A stretch of DNA of 64,000 nt. Origin: Aliarcobacter trophiarum LMG 25534. Lineage in GTDB: Bacteria; Campylobacterota; Campylobacteria; Campylobacterales; Arcobacteraceae. The notes below the pieces were generated by a model. That model saw nothing but the letters and a program-made list of their open reading frames with translations, ran no database searches and had not been told where the DNA came from. Made by a program: the position numbers and the translations under genes. Positions within the stretch are counted from its first letter, which is position 1, and each line of letters opens with the position of its first letter. Positions 16,867-27,909 of the stretch are shown here, one piece after another. Where the stretch lies: assembly GCF_003355515.1 (NCBI RefSeq), contig NZ_CP031367.1, positions 1,240,001 through 1,304,000 of the forward strand. The letters run 5' to 3'.

Positions 16867-18855
16867 TTAATTTTTTTCTAAAGATTTATAAAACTCTTCA
16901 AACTCTTTTGCTTTTATTGGTTTAGAAAAATAGTAACCTTGATATAAATTACAATCTATAGATTTTAGATACTCAACTTGCTCTTGTTGCTCTACCCCTT
17001 CAGCTACTATTTTCATATGTAATGCCTGTCCCATTTTTACAATAGTTTCAATAAATACTTTTCCTTGTTCATTAAAAGAGTCATCAATAAAAGATTTATC
17101 TATTTTTAAATAATCAATAGGGTATTTTTTAAGATAAGATAAAGATGAATATCCTGTTCCAAAATCATCTAATGAAATACTAATACCAAACTTATTTAAT
17201 TTTCTAAGAGTCGCATATACACTATTATTTTGGTCAATCAAAATATATTCAGTTAGTTCTAAAATAATTCTATTTGGCTCTATTTTTTTACTATTTATTT
17301 TATCTATTAAATTTTTTGCAAAATTATTTTGTAAAAACTGTTTAGCTGAAATATTTATAGACATCACTATATCTATACCTTTACTTTTCCAATCTAAATA
17401 TTGATTTAATGCCTCTTCTACTATCCAATCTCCCAATTCTAGAATAAAATCATTCTCTTCAGCAAGAGGAATAAAATCAGAAGGGGGAATAAACCCTTTT
17501 TCCTTATCAATCCATCTAATTAGTGCTTCTACTCCTATTATTTTTGAATCTTTTAGGCAAACTTTTGGTTGGTAAAATAATTTATAATCACCATTTTTAA
17601 GAGCTGTTCGCATCTCTTTATTTAAGTTAATCACTTTTAAGATAGCTTCATTTAAATCTTTTGTAAAAAAATGATATCTATTTCTACCATGTTTTTTTGC
17701 TTCATACATGGCTATATCTGCACTTTTCATTAAAGATACATGATCTTCTCCATCTTGTGGGAAAATTGCTATTCCAACACTACAAGTTGTCTCAACAGGG
17801 TGAGTTTGAATAACCCAAGGTTTTGCTAGTTGTTTTTGTATTCTTTTTATAATATTTGTCAATTCAACAGTAGTTTTATAATCTTGAATAATTAATACAA
17901 ACTCATCACCTCCTACTCTTGCAATAAAATCATTTGGTCTTAACACTTGTTTTAATATAGTTGATATCTTTTGTAATAATTCATCACCAATATTATGACC
18001 CAAAGAGTCATTTATAGTTTTAAAGTGGTCTAAATCTAAAAATAAAAAAGCAAACTCCACTTTCTTTCTTTTTGCAGTTGGAATTAATCTATCTAAAAAC
18101 TCTTGTAGAGAGTTTCTATTTGCTAAACCGCTTAATGAATCTGTTCTTGCCATTAAAAAAAACTCTTTTTTCTCATTTTCTAATCGTGAAAAAGAATCAA
18201 CCATAGAGTGTCTAATAGACTCTAACTCTTTTATTTTAAAAGCTTTTGGAATTTTAGTGTTATAGTATGCCAATTGTCTCAGTTTTTCAAGAGGAATAGT
18301 AATATATTTTCTAAAAATATAGTACATAATTAAAACCAAGAATATAGGTAAAATTCCGAAATATACAAAAAACTCATATCTATTTTTTACAAAATAGGTA
18401 TTTATATACTCTTTATCAATTAAAAATACTAAATCTAACTTTTTTAATCTATTCTGTTCATAGTAGTTAATATCTTCTTGAATATAAGATATTTCTGATA
18501 ACTTTTCACTATATGTTTTTATATTAGTTAAGCTACTATTTCTCTCTATAGATACTACTTTTGGATCTGTTGTAAGTAAAAGTTCATTATCATCAAAAAC
18601 CAAAATTGCCTTTACAAATTGGCTATTTGCAGCAACATTACCTAAAAGTGCCATATAAAGTAATATATCATCTTTTTTTTCTATAGTTTTTGATATTGTA
18701 TAAGCTTTCTCTTTTACTTCATTTTCCATTGTAGTAAATATAACTTTTGAAGTATTCTCCACTTGATTTTTAAAATAGTATATAAATATAGAACTTAATA
18801 TAAAAATCACTACTAGAATAAGGGTTAAAACAAATCTTTGAATTGTAAAAATCAC
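16867..18855 (-). CDS. Membrane GGDEF-EAL receptor (c-di-GMP synthesis/hydrolysis)
   Basis: 662 residues. Membrane helices at about 7-28 and 160-182 enclose a ~130-residue periplasmic sensor. A GGDEF domain (about 235-400) has an intact GGDEF (315-319) and an RPND inhibitory I-site five residues before it. An EAL domain (about 410-655) has intact EALIRW (443-448) and the DDFGTGYSS metal loop. Both activities are therefore possible. The start overlaps the stop of the upstream binding-protein gene by 4 bp, so the two are translationally coupled. The layout is that of Vibrio cholerae nspS-mbaA, where a periplasmic binding protein controls a GGDEF-EAL enzyme. Confidence 0.93.
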   Translation of the reverse strand: MIFTIQRFVLTLILVVIFILSSIFIYYFKNQVENTSKVIFTTMENEVKEKAYTISKTIEKKDDILLYMALLGNVAANSQFVKAILVFDDNELLLTTDPKVVSIERNSSLTNIKTYSEKLSEISYIQEDINYYEQNRLKKLDLVFLIDKEYINTYFVKNRYEFFVYFGILPIFLVLIMYYIFRKYITIPLEKLRQLAYYNTKIPKAFKIKELESIRHSMVDSFSRLENEKKEFFLMARTDSLSGLANRNSLQEFLDRLIPTAKRKKVEFAFLFLDLDHFKTINDSLGHNIGDELLQKISTILKQVLRPNDFIARVGGDEFVLIIQDYKTTVELTNIIKRIQKQLAKPWVIQTHPVETTCSVGIAIFPQDGEDHVSLMKSADIAMYEAKKHGRNRYHFFTKDLNEAILKVINLNKEMRTALKNGDYKLFYQPKVCLKDSKIIGVEALIRWIDKEKGFIPPSDFIPLAEENDFILELGDWIVEEALNQYLDWKSKGIDIVMSINISAKQFLQNNFAKNLIDKINSKKIEPNRIILELTEYILIDQNNSVYATLRKLNKFGISISLDDFGTGYSSLSYLKKYPIDYLKIDKSFIDDSFNEQGKVFIETIVKMGQALHMKIVAEGVEQQEQVEYLKSIDCNLYQGYYFSKPIKAKEFEEFYKSLEKN

Positions 18856-19727
18856 AATAGATCCTTTATTGGGAAATTATGCTCTTTTAAGTTGAGCAGA
18901 ATATTTTGATTTGGATTATTATTCAACCATTTAATATTTGAGATACTATTTGTAAACTCTTCATAAGTAATCCCAAAGAGATAAACTTTTATTAGTTCAT
19001 AATATTGCTTTGGATCTTTTTCTATCTCAGAAATTGCAATATTTACTATCTTCTTAAGCTCTTTTAACTCATCTTTATATTTAACTAAAATATCATTTGT
19101 AGTAAACATGGCATCAATTATTAATAAATCTTTATTATCATTTGTACTCTCTAAAGTTATTAAACCTCTTTTTTCCAAAGCAATATTATATGGATTATAT
19201 GTAACTACAATAGTAGGATTTGTGAACTCTTTTAAATTTGCAATAAAAGATTGATCTTTATTTATATAATTAAAGTATTTTGTCTCTAATTTATATTTAG
19301 ATATAAACTCTTCAAATACAATAGAGTTAATAGAACTAAGTTCTAAATATACATCTATTTTATTTCTCTCTTCATAAAGCTCTTGTAGTGTTTTGTTAGA
19401 CATAACAACATCCCCACCATCTGACTTATTTAATAACATTATTGGAACAACTTGACTGTTTTTCATAGAACTCATTTTATACTCATATTGTGTACCCAAA
19501 AATATATCTGCATGATTTGAATTAAAAGTATAAAGACTCTCACTTAAAGAGACTACGCTTAAAAGTTCAATATTTAAGTTATCTAAAAGCCCTTTTTCTT
19601 TTGCATAGAATAATGGTGTATAACCTATCCAGTTAGATGTAACAATCTTTAATTTCTCTTTTTTATCTTCACCACATGATGTAAAAAATATAATTGATAT
19701 CAAACTTACCAAAATAACTCTAATCAT
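18852..19727 (-). CDS. NMT1/SsuA-like substrate-binding lipoprotein, probable partner of the GGDEF-EAL receptor
   Basis: 291 residues. A signal peptide ends in lipobox FFTSC (Cys18). The mature part has the type II binding-protein fold seen in nitrate, sulfonate and thiamine-precursor receptors, including VTSNWIGYTPLFYAKEKGLL near the start. No ABC permease or ATPase is adjacent; the only partner is the GGDEF-EAL gene, which it overlaps. I infer that it reports a periplasmic ligand to that receptor rather than feeding a transporter. The ligand is unknown. Confidence 0.82.
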   Translation of the reverse strand: MIRVILVSLISIIFFTSCGEDKKEKLKIVTSNWIGYTPLFYAKEKGLLDNLNIELLSVVSLSESLYTFNSNHADIFLGTQYEYKMSSMKNSQVVPIMLLNKSDGGDVVMSNKTLQELYEERNKIDVYLELSSINSIVFEEFISKYKLETKYFNYINKDQSFIANLKEFTNPTIVVTYNPYNIALEKRGLITLESTNDNKDLLIIDAMFTTNDILVKYKDELKELKKIVNIAISEIEKDPKQYYELIKVYLFGITYEEFTNSISNIKWLNNNPNQNILLNLKEHNFPIKDLL

Positions 19728-19850
19728 AAAACTCTCTCCTTAATTTATAGATTAATCCTTTTATTTTTTATTCAAGACTTGTGGCAACTCTTATAGTATT
19801 CTAAGATAAGAAAAATTCTTGCTTAATTCTTCTCCTTATATTTAAGCTTT

Positions 19851-19882
19851 AGCTTTAAGAGATTTAAGATCTCTTAAAAGCT
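19851..19882. terminator. Hairpin at the 3' end of the chemoreceptor gene
   Basis: AGCTTTAAGAGAT pairs with ATCTCTTAAAAGCT around a five-base loop, overlapping the stop codon of the minus-strand chemoreceptor. No clear U-tract follows on the minus strand, so terminator strength is doubtful. Confidence 0.4.
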
Positions 19883-21853
19883 TTCCCACTCATCACTATT
19901 AGAGTTATCTTTAATCTCTTTTACTTTAGAAGTGTTTGTATTTTGATTTGGTTTTACTGTCTTTTTAGCTGTAGAGTTTATTATATGCTCTTTTACCTCT
20001 TTCTTTAATCCTATCTCTTTAGCTTTTACCTCACTCTTACCTACAAACTCTTTTTGATTAGCATCTTCTACTATTAGTTTTGCTATCTCATCTGTACTTA
20101 GAGCAATATCATGTGATTGACTAGCTATCATAGCATTTTGTTGTGTCTGTTGGTCTAATTGATTTACTGCATCATTTATCTGTTCAATCCCTAATAGTTG
20201 CTCTTTTGAAGCATTCTCTATATCAGATATTAAATTCATTGTTGAAGAGATATTTGTATTTAAGTTTTTATATCCATCTATCATATTTGTAGCAATAGTT
20301 TTTCCTTCATTAGCTTTTACTGTTGCTCTTTCTACTATCTCTTTTATCTCTTTTGCAGCTTCTGCACTTCTTGTTGCTAGATTTCTTACCTCTTGTGCAA
20401 CAACTGCAAACCCTTTTCCTGCTTCCCCTGCTGTTGCTGCTTCTACTGCTGCATTTAGTGAAAGAATATTTGTTTGAAATGCTATATTATCAATTACTCC
20501 TATTGCCTCATTTACAAGATTTACTTGTGTATTTATCTCATCCATTGCAGTTGTTGTCTGATTTGCCATAGCTTGTCCTTCATTTACTGCTTTTGTAACA
20601 CCATTTGAAAGATGTGACATCTTTGCAATACTCTCTGTATTATTTCTTATATTTGAAGTTATCTCTTCTAATGCTGCTGCTGTCTCTTCTAGTGATGCTG
20701 CTGCTTCATTTGAACTTAAGTTTAATTTATCAACATTTGATAGAAGAATTTTTGAACTATCTTCTAGTGTTAAACCATTTGCCTTATTTTCACAAAGCAT
20801 TGAAGTAATAGAATCTCCTAAAGAATTTATTCCATTAGCCAAACCTAAAAGTTGCTCTTTTAAACCTTTTGTTGAAACTCTACCTACATAGTTATATGAA
20901 GAGTATTTCTCAAGAACATCTAAAATATTTTCAATATTTTTCTCTAAAACATCCCCCATACCATTTATCACTGTTGAAAGTTGCATTAAAGCTGGATTTT
21001 CTACTTTTGTATCTAATCTTTTACATAAATCACCTTGCTCAAACTCTCCTAAAACCTCTATAGTTTCACTAATTAATTTTCTATCCTCTTCTATACCTTT
21101 TTTAGTCTTTATAATATTCTCATTTACAACTTTTGACATCTGTCCAAACTCATCTTTTGAACTATCATCTAAAAGCTCACTATCTTTTTCCTCTCTATTT
21201 AAGTATGCAAAAAAACCTAAAAGTCCATCTTTAAATCTATTTACAGAATTTAAAATATTATTTGCTACAAAAGTTGAAATAGCTACAAAGAGAATTGAAG
21301 CAAATATTAAAATAATAGCAAGATTAGTGTCAAGGTTACTATATGCCTCTTTTTCTAACTCTACAGCTGAACTATTTATCTCATAAAGTTTATCTTCCAT
21401 CTCTAAACCTATATTTGCCATTTTTGTAATACTATCTTTTAGTGTTTCACTCTCTATTTCTATACCATTTTGTGTATTTTGTATTTTCTCTTTAGAAAAA
21501 GATTTAAAAAGTTCTGCATATTTATCTACTAAAATCAATGATTGATTCGCTAAATCTATATTTTTTTGGTTAGAAAAATCTTTTTTAGTATCTACTAGAC
21601 TATTTTCAAGATATTTCATATTTTCATCAACTATGTTTTCAGTTTCACTATTTGGATTTCTAAGAAACTGGTAAACAGATATTCTAGTCTTTGCAATATC
21701 TAAAACAAACTTCTCACTTGCTTGTGCCGCTGCATTTCTTTTATGGGCAATATCTATAAAGTATAAATATATACAACTTGAAGCAATTACTATTGCAATA
21801 AATAATATTGGGAAAAAGTATAACTTTTTTCTTGTGTTTAAATTTTTAAACAT
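19874..21853 (-). CDS. Methyl-accepting chemotaxis protein with C-terminal WESF tail
   Basis: 659 residues. Membrane helices at about 12-33 and 177-200 flank a helical periplasmic sensor (4HB-like, no recognised ligand motif). A long linker (about 205-360) leads to the signalling hairpin (about 365-600), whose tip [20 protein letters not shown] is intact. The last residues are DEWESF after a ~50-residue Lys/Asn/Ser-rich tether. This resembles the NWETF/NWESF pentapeptide that docks CheR and CheB in enterobacterial receptors. No other chemotaxis gene is adjacent. Confidence 0.92.
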
Positions 21854-25686: not shown

Positions 25687-27909
25687 CTATTTTCCTTCAA
25701 ACGTTTTTTGGTTTACTTGATCCAAAATCTCTTTTGAAATCTCTAAAGTTTTTTGTGCAATATCATTTGCAATATTAGCATTTTGAGCATTTTTTTGAGT
25801 TATTTGGTCAAGACTATTAACTGCACTATTTATCTGTACCATTCCACTATTTTGCTCTTTTGAAGCAGTTGTTACATTTTGTATTAAATCTATAGTTGTT
25901 GAGATATTTTCATTTAATTCTGCATAACCCTCTATCATCTCTGTAGCTATCTGTTTACCATCTTTTGCTTTATCTTGAGCATTCTCAACTAACTCTTGAA
26001 TTCTTTTTGCAGCTTCAGCACTTCTATTTGCAAGATTTCTAACTTCACCAGCAACAACAGCAAATCCTTTTCCAGCTTCACCAGCTGTTGCAGCTTCAAC
26101 TGCTGCATTTAAACTTAGGATATTTGTTTGGAAAGCAATTTGATCAATTACAGTAATAGCTTCACTAATTGCCAATGCTTCACTATTTATATCATCCATA
26201 GATTTTACAGTTTTATTTGCTAAATCTTGACCTATAGCAATAGATGTTTTAACTCTTTGTCCATAATCAGACATTTTTGCAGTTGTTTGTGTATTATTTG
26301 TAATATTTGAAGTAATCTCTTCTAAAGAAGCTGCTGTCTCTTCCAAAGAAGCTGCTTGTGTATTTGCTGAGTTAGAAATATGTTTCATATTTTGACTAAG
26401 AATATTTGCATTATCTTGTAAAGTTAATCCTATTTTCTTATTATCTAATAAAGTTTTTGTTATAACATCTCTTAAAATATTTATATCATTCTCTAGCTCT
26501 TTTATAATACCTTCCAACTCGTTATCTTTTAATTTTGGTCTAAAATCTAATTTTGAGTAAGATGTAAGTACATTTAAAATATTAGAAATATTTGAGTTTA
26601 AAGTATTTAACATCTCATTTATAATATTTTTTAAATCATTTAGTGCTGGATTATTTGAACTAGCCTCTATCTCTTGATTTAAATACCCTTTATTTATACT
26701 ATTTGCAACTCTAATTGTATCAGCTATCAACGCTCTATCTTTTTGTATATTTGCTTTTGTATTTTCTATATTTTTATTAATAATTCTAGCCATATTTCCT
26801 AGCTCATCTTTTGAATTTACATCAATAAGCTTAATATCCTCTTTTTCAAAATTAATAAATGCAAAAAACTCTTCAACTCCAGCTCTTACACTTCCAACAT
26901 CAATCAAAATTGTAAATGCTATAGTTCTTGCAAGTATCATAGTAATAGCAACCCCAAAAACACTTAAAAGTGAAAATATTAAAAGATGAAAATTTGCTTC
27001 ACTTTTTTCACTCTCTATTTGATTTAAAAGGCTATTTGCTACAAAATCTTCAACCTCTTTTAAAAGTTCTATTTTATCTGTAATTGTAGAAAACCAATAG
27101 TTTGGATCTATTCCAAACTTCTCATCTATATTTGAAAAAAGAGCTACAGTTCTCATTCTTTCAACTTCATCTATTGCTTTTCCAACCACAGTTTTACTAT
27201 AAAAATCTTTTATATTTTGTGAAGCTATTTTTGAGAAAATATCCAAATATGCGATTTGTTCAGCTACTAAATTATAAAATTTAGCCTTTAACTCAGGTGT
27301 AAATTTATCTTGTGCAAAAGTATTTGTACCAACTGCTCTTTCAATTCCAGTTCTCTCTTTTGAGAGTAAGAAATTCATATAACTTGCTAACTCTTTTGTA
27401 ATATTTGAACTATTTGATTGTTTTACTATATTTCCTAAAATATTTAATAACAAGGTATTTGTATCTGTATAATATGCTATTGCTTTTGGTGCTGGAATAT
27501 CAAAAGCATTTACCTTTGCTCTAATCTCTTCTAAATCTTTTAGTTTTGTTAAACCATCATCTAGATTTTTTATAAAATCTGCACTATATAAATTTTTATC
27601 AAAATCTTTAAGATAAATATTTAAGTTTGCTAATTGTTTATTTACTTCATCTCTTTGTTTTGGTAATTCATCTTTAAACTTTGCGCCACGGCTTCCAATA
27701 AACCCAGCAGTCATACCTCTCTCTTTTTGAGTTTCATGAACTAAAGCTCCAACCTTTGTAGATAAAACAACAACTTTATCTAGTTTTTTAAGGTTTTCCA
27801 AACTGGCATATGAATCAAAAGCTAGTTTAGCAGCTAAAAGAATTACTATTAAAAGTGGTATTAGCATTATTAAAATCAGTTTTTGTTTTATTGATAGTGA
27901 AGATATCAT
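25687..27909 (-). CDS. Methyl-accepting chemotaxis protein with NIT sensor domain
   Basis: 740 residues. A first membrane helix (about 10-28) is followed by a periplasmic NIT (nitrate/nitrite-sensing type) domain at about 45-290, recognised by [21 protein letters not shown] second helix (about 303-325) and a long linker lead to the signalling domain (about 500-735) with tip [20 protein letters not shown]. It is a paralogue of the receptor at 19.9-21.9 kb in its cytoplasmic half but has a different sensor and lacks the WESF tail, ending in NQKTFEGK. It probably tunes taxis to nitrate, nitrite or a similar ligand; that is inferred from the domain name only. Confidence 0.93.

Follow-up and report, generated by a model that had tools for sequence, protein, structure and literature searches.

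A periplasmic binding lipoprotein and a GGDEF-EAL receptor with overlapping genes in Aliarcobacter trophiarum: a probable two-protein c-di-GMP sensor with a TauA/SsuA-type binding subunit

What is the role of a periplasmic solute-binding protein (SBP) whose gene overlaps that of a membrane-bound GGDEF-EAL receptor, when no permease gene adjoins the pair? The question arises from a locus of Aliarcobacter trophiarum LMG 25534, in a stretch of 64,000 nucleotides (the window) of a genome that consists of a single contig of 1,915,613 bases. The original prediction, made from the sequence of the window, regarded the two gene products as a periplasmic sensor that feeds c-di-GMP signalling. In our analysis, it is very likely that the pair is a two-protein periplasmic receptor that controls c-di-GMP, with a class of binding protein unlike that of NspS-MbaA. 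The basis for this reading is the coupling of the genes, the conservation of the pair, the folds, the intact catalytic motifs, the lack of a transporter partner, and the retention of SBP residues as outputs change.

The features of the locus are collected in Table 1. Both open reading frames and their predicted 4-bp overlap were found in place, with the tetranucleotide GTGA common to the two genes. In the promoter scan, scores at the locus were no better than, or under, the shuffle level. The one terminator-like site that was found lies inside coding sequence, and the Rfam scan of the window gave no match. The chemoreceptor gene upstream of the pair (window 19874-21853) was considered as a fixed part of the system and rejected, because the genes 5' of the pair vary from relative to relative. 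Two close relatives have another chemoreceptor gene, different from the first, between the latter and the SBP gene (L018:6004-7272 and L019:6660-7928). Four relatives from the same genus (L020-L023) have an ABC exporter-like gene 5' of the pair, and three of the four have one more gene there, which encodes an AI-2E family transporter where scanned (L021). Elsewhere in the window (25687-27909) there is a gene for a chemoreceptor with a NIT nitrate/nitrite-sensing domain.

Table 1. Features of the binding protein and receptor genes in the window.
Feature	Position	Strand	Basis
SBP, putative NMT1/TauA-fold binding lipoprotein, 291 aa	18852..19727	-	ORF, fold model, profiles of relatives
Signal peptide of the SBP, residues 1-17	19677..19727	-	Sequence
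Putative lipid-bearing Cys18 of the SBP	19674-19676	-	Conservation in relatives
WIGYTP motif, SBP residues 33-38	19614..19631	-	W33, G35 and P38 invariant in 85/85
NKSDGGD motif, SBP residues 100-106	19410..19430	-	S102 and D106 invariant in 85/85; aligns with DFSNGND of TIGR03427
Membrane receptor with GGDEF-EAL output, 662 aa, GTG start	16867..18855	-	ORF, Pfam, structural comparison
GTGA overlap, SBP stop TGA and receptor start GTG	18852..18855	-	Sequence
AAGGA, 6 nt 5' of the receptor GTG	18862-18866	-	Sequence
Periplasmic domain of the receptor, residues 33-160, probably Cache/PAS-like in its helix/strand order	18376..18759	-	Model
GGDEF domain, receptor residues 237-393	17677..18147	-	Pfam
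RPND I-site, receptor residues 306-309, inside the GGDEF domain		-	Sequence
EAL domain, receptor residues 414-646, full set of catalytic residues	16918..17616	-	Pfam and sequence
Shine-Dalgarno-like AAGGAGA 5' of the SBP gene	19735..19741	-	Sequence

The signal peptide of the SBP ends in FTS-C18. The cysteine is present in all 52 complete GGDEF-EAL pairs and in at least 90% of the 85 SBPs that were compared (87 paired SBPs, minus the near-duplicates L019 and L022). The Pfam scan of the window SBP itself gave no match, and searches of PDB sequences with the SBP, its profile and a profile of the receptor N-terminus returned matches at chance level only. Among the 85 SBPs, 40 match NMT1 (PF09084, E <= 0.01) and 28 match NMT1_2. 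An AlphaFold2 model of the SBP, built from 12 aligned sequences (pLDDT 89.1), was compared with known structures. The best matches were TauA (6ssy, Z 24.4, rmsd 2.8 A, 261 residues aligned), SsuA (3ksx, Z 24.0, rmsd 3.1, 260 aligned) and 3un6 (Z 23.0, rmsd 3.2, 262 aligned). The model thus confirms the predicted TauA/SsuA (NMT1) fold class and leaves a PotD-like class unsupported, and its fold, together with the profile matches of the relatives, places the protein in the NMT1 superfamily (PF09084/PF13379). Nine SBP residues (W33, G35, P38, T79, E82, S102, D106, E129 and P179) are invariant in 85/85 proteins, across all output types, and probably line the pocket. Two other NMT1 proteins of the same genome, L045 and L047, do not have these residues. 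In L045 (G000:C1, about 354400-356300), NMT1 domain and membrane histidine kinase are fused in a single protein, 646 aa counted from a TTG codon. This amounts to NMT1 sensing by one protein, in the genome that also has the window pair. From our reading of the sequence, the L045 gene is flanked by what we take to be purH-like and bioA-like genes.

The receptor has the RPND I-site and the catalytic residues of both GGDEF and EAL domains intact; the residues are those that we take, from the EAL and GGDEF literature, to be catalytic or part of the I-site. Judged by its residues, it should therefore qualify as a dual enzyme. The closest structure is that of PA0575 (5m3c, Z 37.9, rmsd 4.3, 422 aligned), and GGDEF/EAL chains fill the list of matches. 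Across the 52 complete GGDEF-EAL pairs, the phosphodiesterase residues are kept in all and the GGDEF residues in 51 or 52, with the I-site kept less often (Arg in 40, Asp in 44). Two hydrophobic segments flank residues 33-160, which are modelled as a long helix, a helix, two strands, a helix and two strands, and appear to resemble a single Cache/PAS domain. The NMT1/SsuA-like rather than PotD-like fold of the SBP, the intact GGDEF, EAL and I-site motifs and the periplasmic domain of the receptor, all parts of the original prediction, were borne out in this way.

The pair is not a peculiarity of A. trophiarum. A pattern scan of genome contigs that started from the window SBP alone detected no relatives, but an alignment-based scan did. 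In named genomes, the latter identified 47 loci, mostly in Sulfurimonas, Sulfuricurvum, Arcobacter-like bacteria and Nautiliaceae. Loci outside the Campylobacterota were present in Thiomicrorhabdus sp. ZW0627, Hydrogenovibrio sp. JE_KL2 and Cognaticolwellia sediminilitoris, and further ones in a Colwellia MAG, an Alteromonadaceae MAG and another gammaproteobacterial MAG. SBP relatives occur in 15 of the 60 genomes of the "relatives" set, the own genome counted, and in 64 of 398 genomes (25 of 87 genera) across the order. Of the 60 genomes of the "relatives" set, 12 have the receptor N-terminus (residues 1-234), and the SBP is present in all 12. Within the own genus, 9 of 31 genomes have both SBP and receptor N-terminus, and 22 have neither (Fisher 5e-8, if the genomes are treated as independent).

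A census of Campylobacterota and Gammaproteobacteria gave 101 distinct SBP open reading frames, not counting repeats of identical proteins, frames open at a contig end, pieces shorter than 230 aa and, at L104, the second SBP, which is of the transport type. A gene for a transmembrane signalling receptor is located directly 3' in 87 of them, at distances from -137 to +52, and exactly -4 in 51 of the 87. The genome survey that had been proposed as a check of the pairing thus came out in its favour. The 14 unpaired frames include a split SBP with the receptor present (L025), three low-scoring cases (L031, L133 and L134, of which L031 and L134 are TIGR03427 transport proteins), three with only a shortened receptor N-terminus (L075, L088 and L173) and four at contig ends (L090, L114, L127 and L148). 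In one clade (L119, L123 and L124), the SBP is found without an overlapping receptor, and a GGDEF protein converges from the opposite side; the genes just 5' of the SBP are presumably an ftsW-like and murG-like pair, as named from the sequence. At L025, L075, L077, L125 and L173, either the SBP is split or the receptor is split or shortened, which may reflect decay or an assembly error.

The outputs of the 87 pairs, assigned by script with Pfam scans of examples, are varied. GGDEF-EAL is the most frequent (54), followed by longer or degenerate GGDEF-EAL forms (18, with GAF or PAS domains where scanned), GGDEF without EAL (9), histidine kinases (5) and a hybrid kinase (1). Some of the nine GGDEF-only cases may be shortened copies. 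A tree of the SBPs, made by a quick method, requires at least 11 changes of output when the transport rows are taken as one state. The gammaproteobacterial rows are nested within the Campylobacterota, with at least three changes, which is consistent with transfer of the pair.

NMT1-type folds are mostly found in transport proteins. The SBP could thus be an ordinary transport protein with permease and ATPase encoded elsewhere, and its position 5' of the receptor would then reflect co-regulation only. A possible permease exists in the genome: 12 matches to PF00528 were found, and the 10 that were typed are of the Opp, CysT/CysW, ModB, Pst and double permease types, apart from one SsuC/SaoP-like protein at 597442. 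However, the only TauC/SsuC-like permease among the typed matches comes with an NMT1-class binding protein of its own, and these matches include no permease/ATPase set of the TauC/SsuC class that lacks a binding protein. Permease searches gave no match at the 47 loci of named genomes, and in the signalling neighbourhoods they gave matches only at L031 and L134, the two TIGR03427 proteins. No SBP of the signalling clade has a permease directly beside it (0 loci). In one genome, G409, a permease is located about 2.9 kb past the receptor, inside a guanidine operon with its own TIGR03427 SBP. ATPases near some pairs belong to ABC exporters where scanned, or are set apart. As a control, 12 loci of the transport family TIGR03427 were collected from 199 genomes of the order; a TauC-like permease is found alongside in 12/12, and an ATPase also lies within the examined stretch in 11/12. 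Moreover, the pair is kept in many genera of the order while the surrounding genes vary, which again speaks against mere co-regulation. Transport is therefore a very improbable role for the SBP. The predicted absence of an ABC transporter partner held, and no orphan permease/ATPase set of the TauC/SsuC class that could have overturned it came to light in the genome; together with the pairing in 87 of 101 cases, this supports a two-protein periplasmic sensor as far as genome comparison can tell. It is also unlikely that the receptor senses a ligand of its own through the Cache/PAS-like periplasmic domain, with the SBP as a modulator or passenger. Cache domains do bind ligands directly in other proteins, and some relatives have recognisable ones (sCache_4 in the partner of L099, and dCache_1, below the cut-off, in L112 and L115). 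Yet such matches are rare among the receptor N-termini (dCache_1 in 3/85 and sCache_4 in 2/85), and conservation is lowest in the periplasmic domain, in contrast to the SBP with its nine invariant residues. Over the 52 GGDEF-EAL pairs, the median pairwise identity is 19% for the periplasmic domain, 42% for the SBP and 47% for GGDEF-EAL. A value as low as 19% is expected if the SBP does the sensing, and a conserved SBP with a freely diverging receptor domain fits ligand specificity that would be carried by the SBP. In a test of tree distances over the same pairs, the SBP follows the cytoplasmic half of the receptor more closely (r 0.84) than it follows the periplasmic domain (r 0.64), and hence there is no excess that would point to special co-evolution of the interface, although saturation at 19% identity may mask it.

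For the two-protein receptor, we infer ligand binding by the SBP, its docking and the direction of the switch as follows. The lipoprotein, anchored in the periplasm, would close on a small molecule. Either in the liganded or in the free form, it would dock on the translationally coupled receptor at its periplasmic domain. From there, the signal would cross TM2 and the conserved linker (residues 188-235), and shift the balance between synthesis by the GGDEF domain and breakdown by the EAL domain, so that c-di-GMP would change.

As to the small molecule, the original prediction listed sulfonates, nitrate and pyrimidines. The list was too narrow, as the nearest transport cousins belong to TIGR03427, a family linked to guanidine riboswitches. 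TIGR03427 is the NCBIfam family matched most often by the 85 signalling SBPs (41, against 14 for SsuA_fam), with scores far under the cut-off in the individual tables examined. The window SBP, at 18.5 bits against a cut-off of 333.9, lies outside the family. In a profile-profile comparison, the 85 SBPs align with 11 TIGR03427 proteins (from 11 of the 12 loci) over 271 columns (Prob 99.2, E 8e-20). WIGYTP is placed opposite YVGWMP and NKSDGGD opposite DFSNGND, so that GxxP and SxGxD motifs are common to both groups. A guanidine-I riboswitch is present directly 5' of 10 of the 12 TIGR03427 loci, and it is therefore most likely that these cousins import guanidine or a relative. An operon of this type is described in the available part of a report that cites Sinn et al. 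2021 for the guanidine carboxylase (PMC13296017). In G409, a signalling pair with a GAF-GGDEF-EAL receptor is followed by a complete guanidine-assimilation operon with a guanidine-I riboswitch, the TIGR03427 SBP, permease, ATPase, UAAP1, UAAP2, urea (guanidine) carboxylase (1860.7 bits) and allophanate hydrolase. The protein encoded between pair and operon (L207:10953-12173, 406 aa) reads as EAL/HDOD-like and has no NCBIfam match. Strong matches to the riboswitch model in 75 + 48 sources were limited to L134, a transport locus, and L104 (the same site as L194).

These data make guanidine or a guanidino compound a candidate ligand and the first choice for testing, but a tentative one; it is rather probable that the same two-protein mechanism serves a different ligand, such as a sulfonate, taurine, a pyrimidine or an unknown molecule. 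In favour of a guanidino compound are the predominance of TIGR03427 matches, the common motifs and the closeness of pair and operon in G409. The latter is found in one genome only, and we estimate that chance would bring the two so close together in one of the six genomes with both in about 1 of 20 cases. In favour of another ligand, most TIGR03427 proteins have other residues at the positions of W33, E82 and E129, and remote members match SsuA_fam as well as TIGR03427. No guanidine-I riboswitch was found in the own genome. There is also no link at the genome level. The riboswitch is present in 24 of 398 genomes of the order, and it occurs together with a signalling SBP in 6 of 398, no more than the chance expectation of about 3.7 (p = 0.24; 61 SBP genomes, after removal of G046, G199 and G220 as low-scoring matches to other binding proteins). 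It is conceivable, and put forward even more tentatively, that an SBP of the kind that serves guanidine uptake became a dedicated signalling subunit and was later joined to many outputs. Extracellular guanidine, or a guanidino compound, would then set c-di-GMP directly, and histidine kinase signalling in relatives, in Campylobacterota and some Gammaproteobacteria. Free guanidine is known chiefly as a riboswitch ligand and a nitrogen source. If the recruitment took place, there would be a membrane-based sense for guanidine besides the known riboswitches, and if guanidine is the ligand, it would in addition act as a cue for attachment to surfaces or for motility.

Irrespective of the ligand, the pair would extend the two-protein c-di-GMP receptors by a class that is widespread, as yet unnamed and built on a different type of binding protein. 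What is new is the breadth of the pair, a dedicated signalling clade that separates cleanly from the transport cousins, the exchange of outputs and a concrete candidate for a first ligand. In a general treatment of receptors stimulated by SBPs, at least 13 SBP families are said to act in this way, and NMT1 is named once, for its ligand class, in the accessible part of the source (PMC9602780). The genome of A. butzleri encodes 25 GGDEF/EAL proteins, and the part of the genome paper that was examined names no such pair (PMC2147049). Literature searches, with subscription papers mostly outside their range, found no work that joins NMT1, GGDEF and c-di-GMP, and nothing that joins Arcobacter, GGDEF, EAL and a periplasmic binding protein, or that deals with this pair.

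The nearest transport relatives found, TIGR03427 (ABC_peri_uca), have motifs in common with the window SBP, but they come with a permease and mostly under guanidine-I riboswitches, whereas no TauC-like permease or ATPase is located near the window pair. In the ScrB-ScrC system of Vibrio parahaemolyticus, a periplasmic binding protein reportedly acts on a GGDEF-EAL receptor, and ScrA is said to make the signal. The window pair is similar in its two components, but no ScrA-type gene is fixed near it. In the NspS-MbaA systems of Vibrio cholerae and Sinorhizobium meliloti, as far as the accessible text describes them, the SBP gene overlaps the GGDEF-EAL receptor gene by 16 bp and 3 bp, respectively (PMC9993111). 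The window pair shares the order of the genes, with the SBP gene directly 5' of the receptor gene and an overlap of 4 bp, and apparently also the separation of signalling from transport and the periplasmic domain flanked by transmembrane segments. It differs in that NspS, according to the same text, is a PotD/PotF-like polyamine sensor, whereas the window SBP has the predicted TauA/SsuA-type fold, and no polyamine SBP model is among the NCBIfam families matched by the 85 SBPs. Moreover, relatives of the window pair also have outputs other than GGDEF-EAL. In this respect they resemble PruR-DcpA and PruR-DTB, in which, in the portion of the report available, a periplasmic binder is coupled to a receptor with either GGDEF-EAL or sensor kinase output (PMC13259868). 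Here, too, a two-gene operon starts with the periplasmic binder, and the output is swapped in relatives (GGDEF-EAL, GGDEF, GAF/PAS forms and histidine kinase). The likeness is one of the way of working and not of membership, since PruR is described there as a SUOX-like pterin binder of about 170 aa and not an SBP, unlike the window binder with its TauA/SsuA fold. The pair thus belongs to none of the named two-protein systems that were tested, and by all indirect signs it would work in the way of NspS-MbaA and PruR-DcpA.
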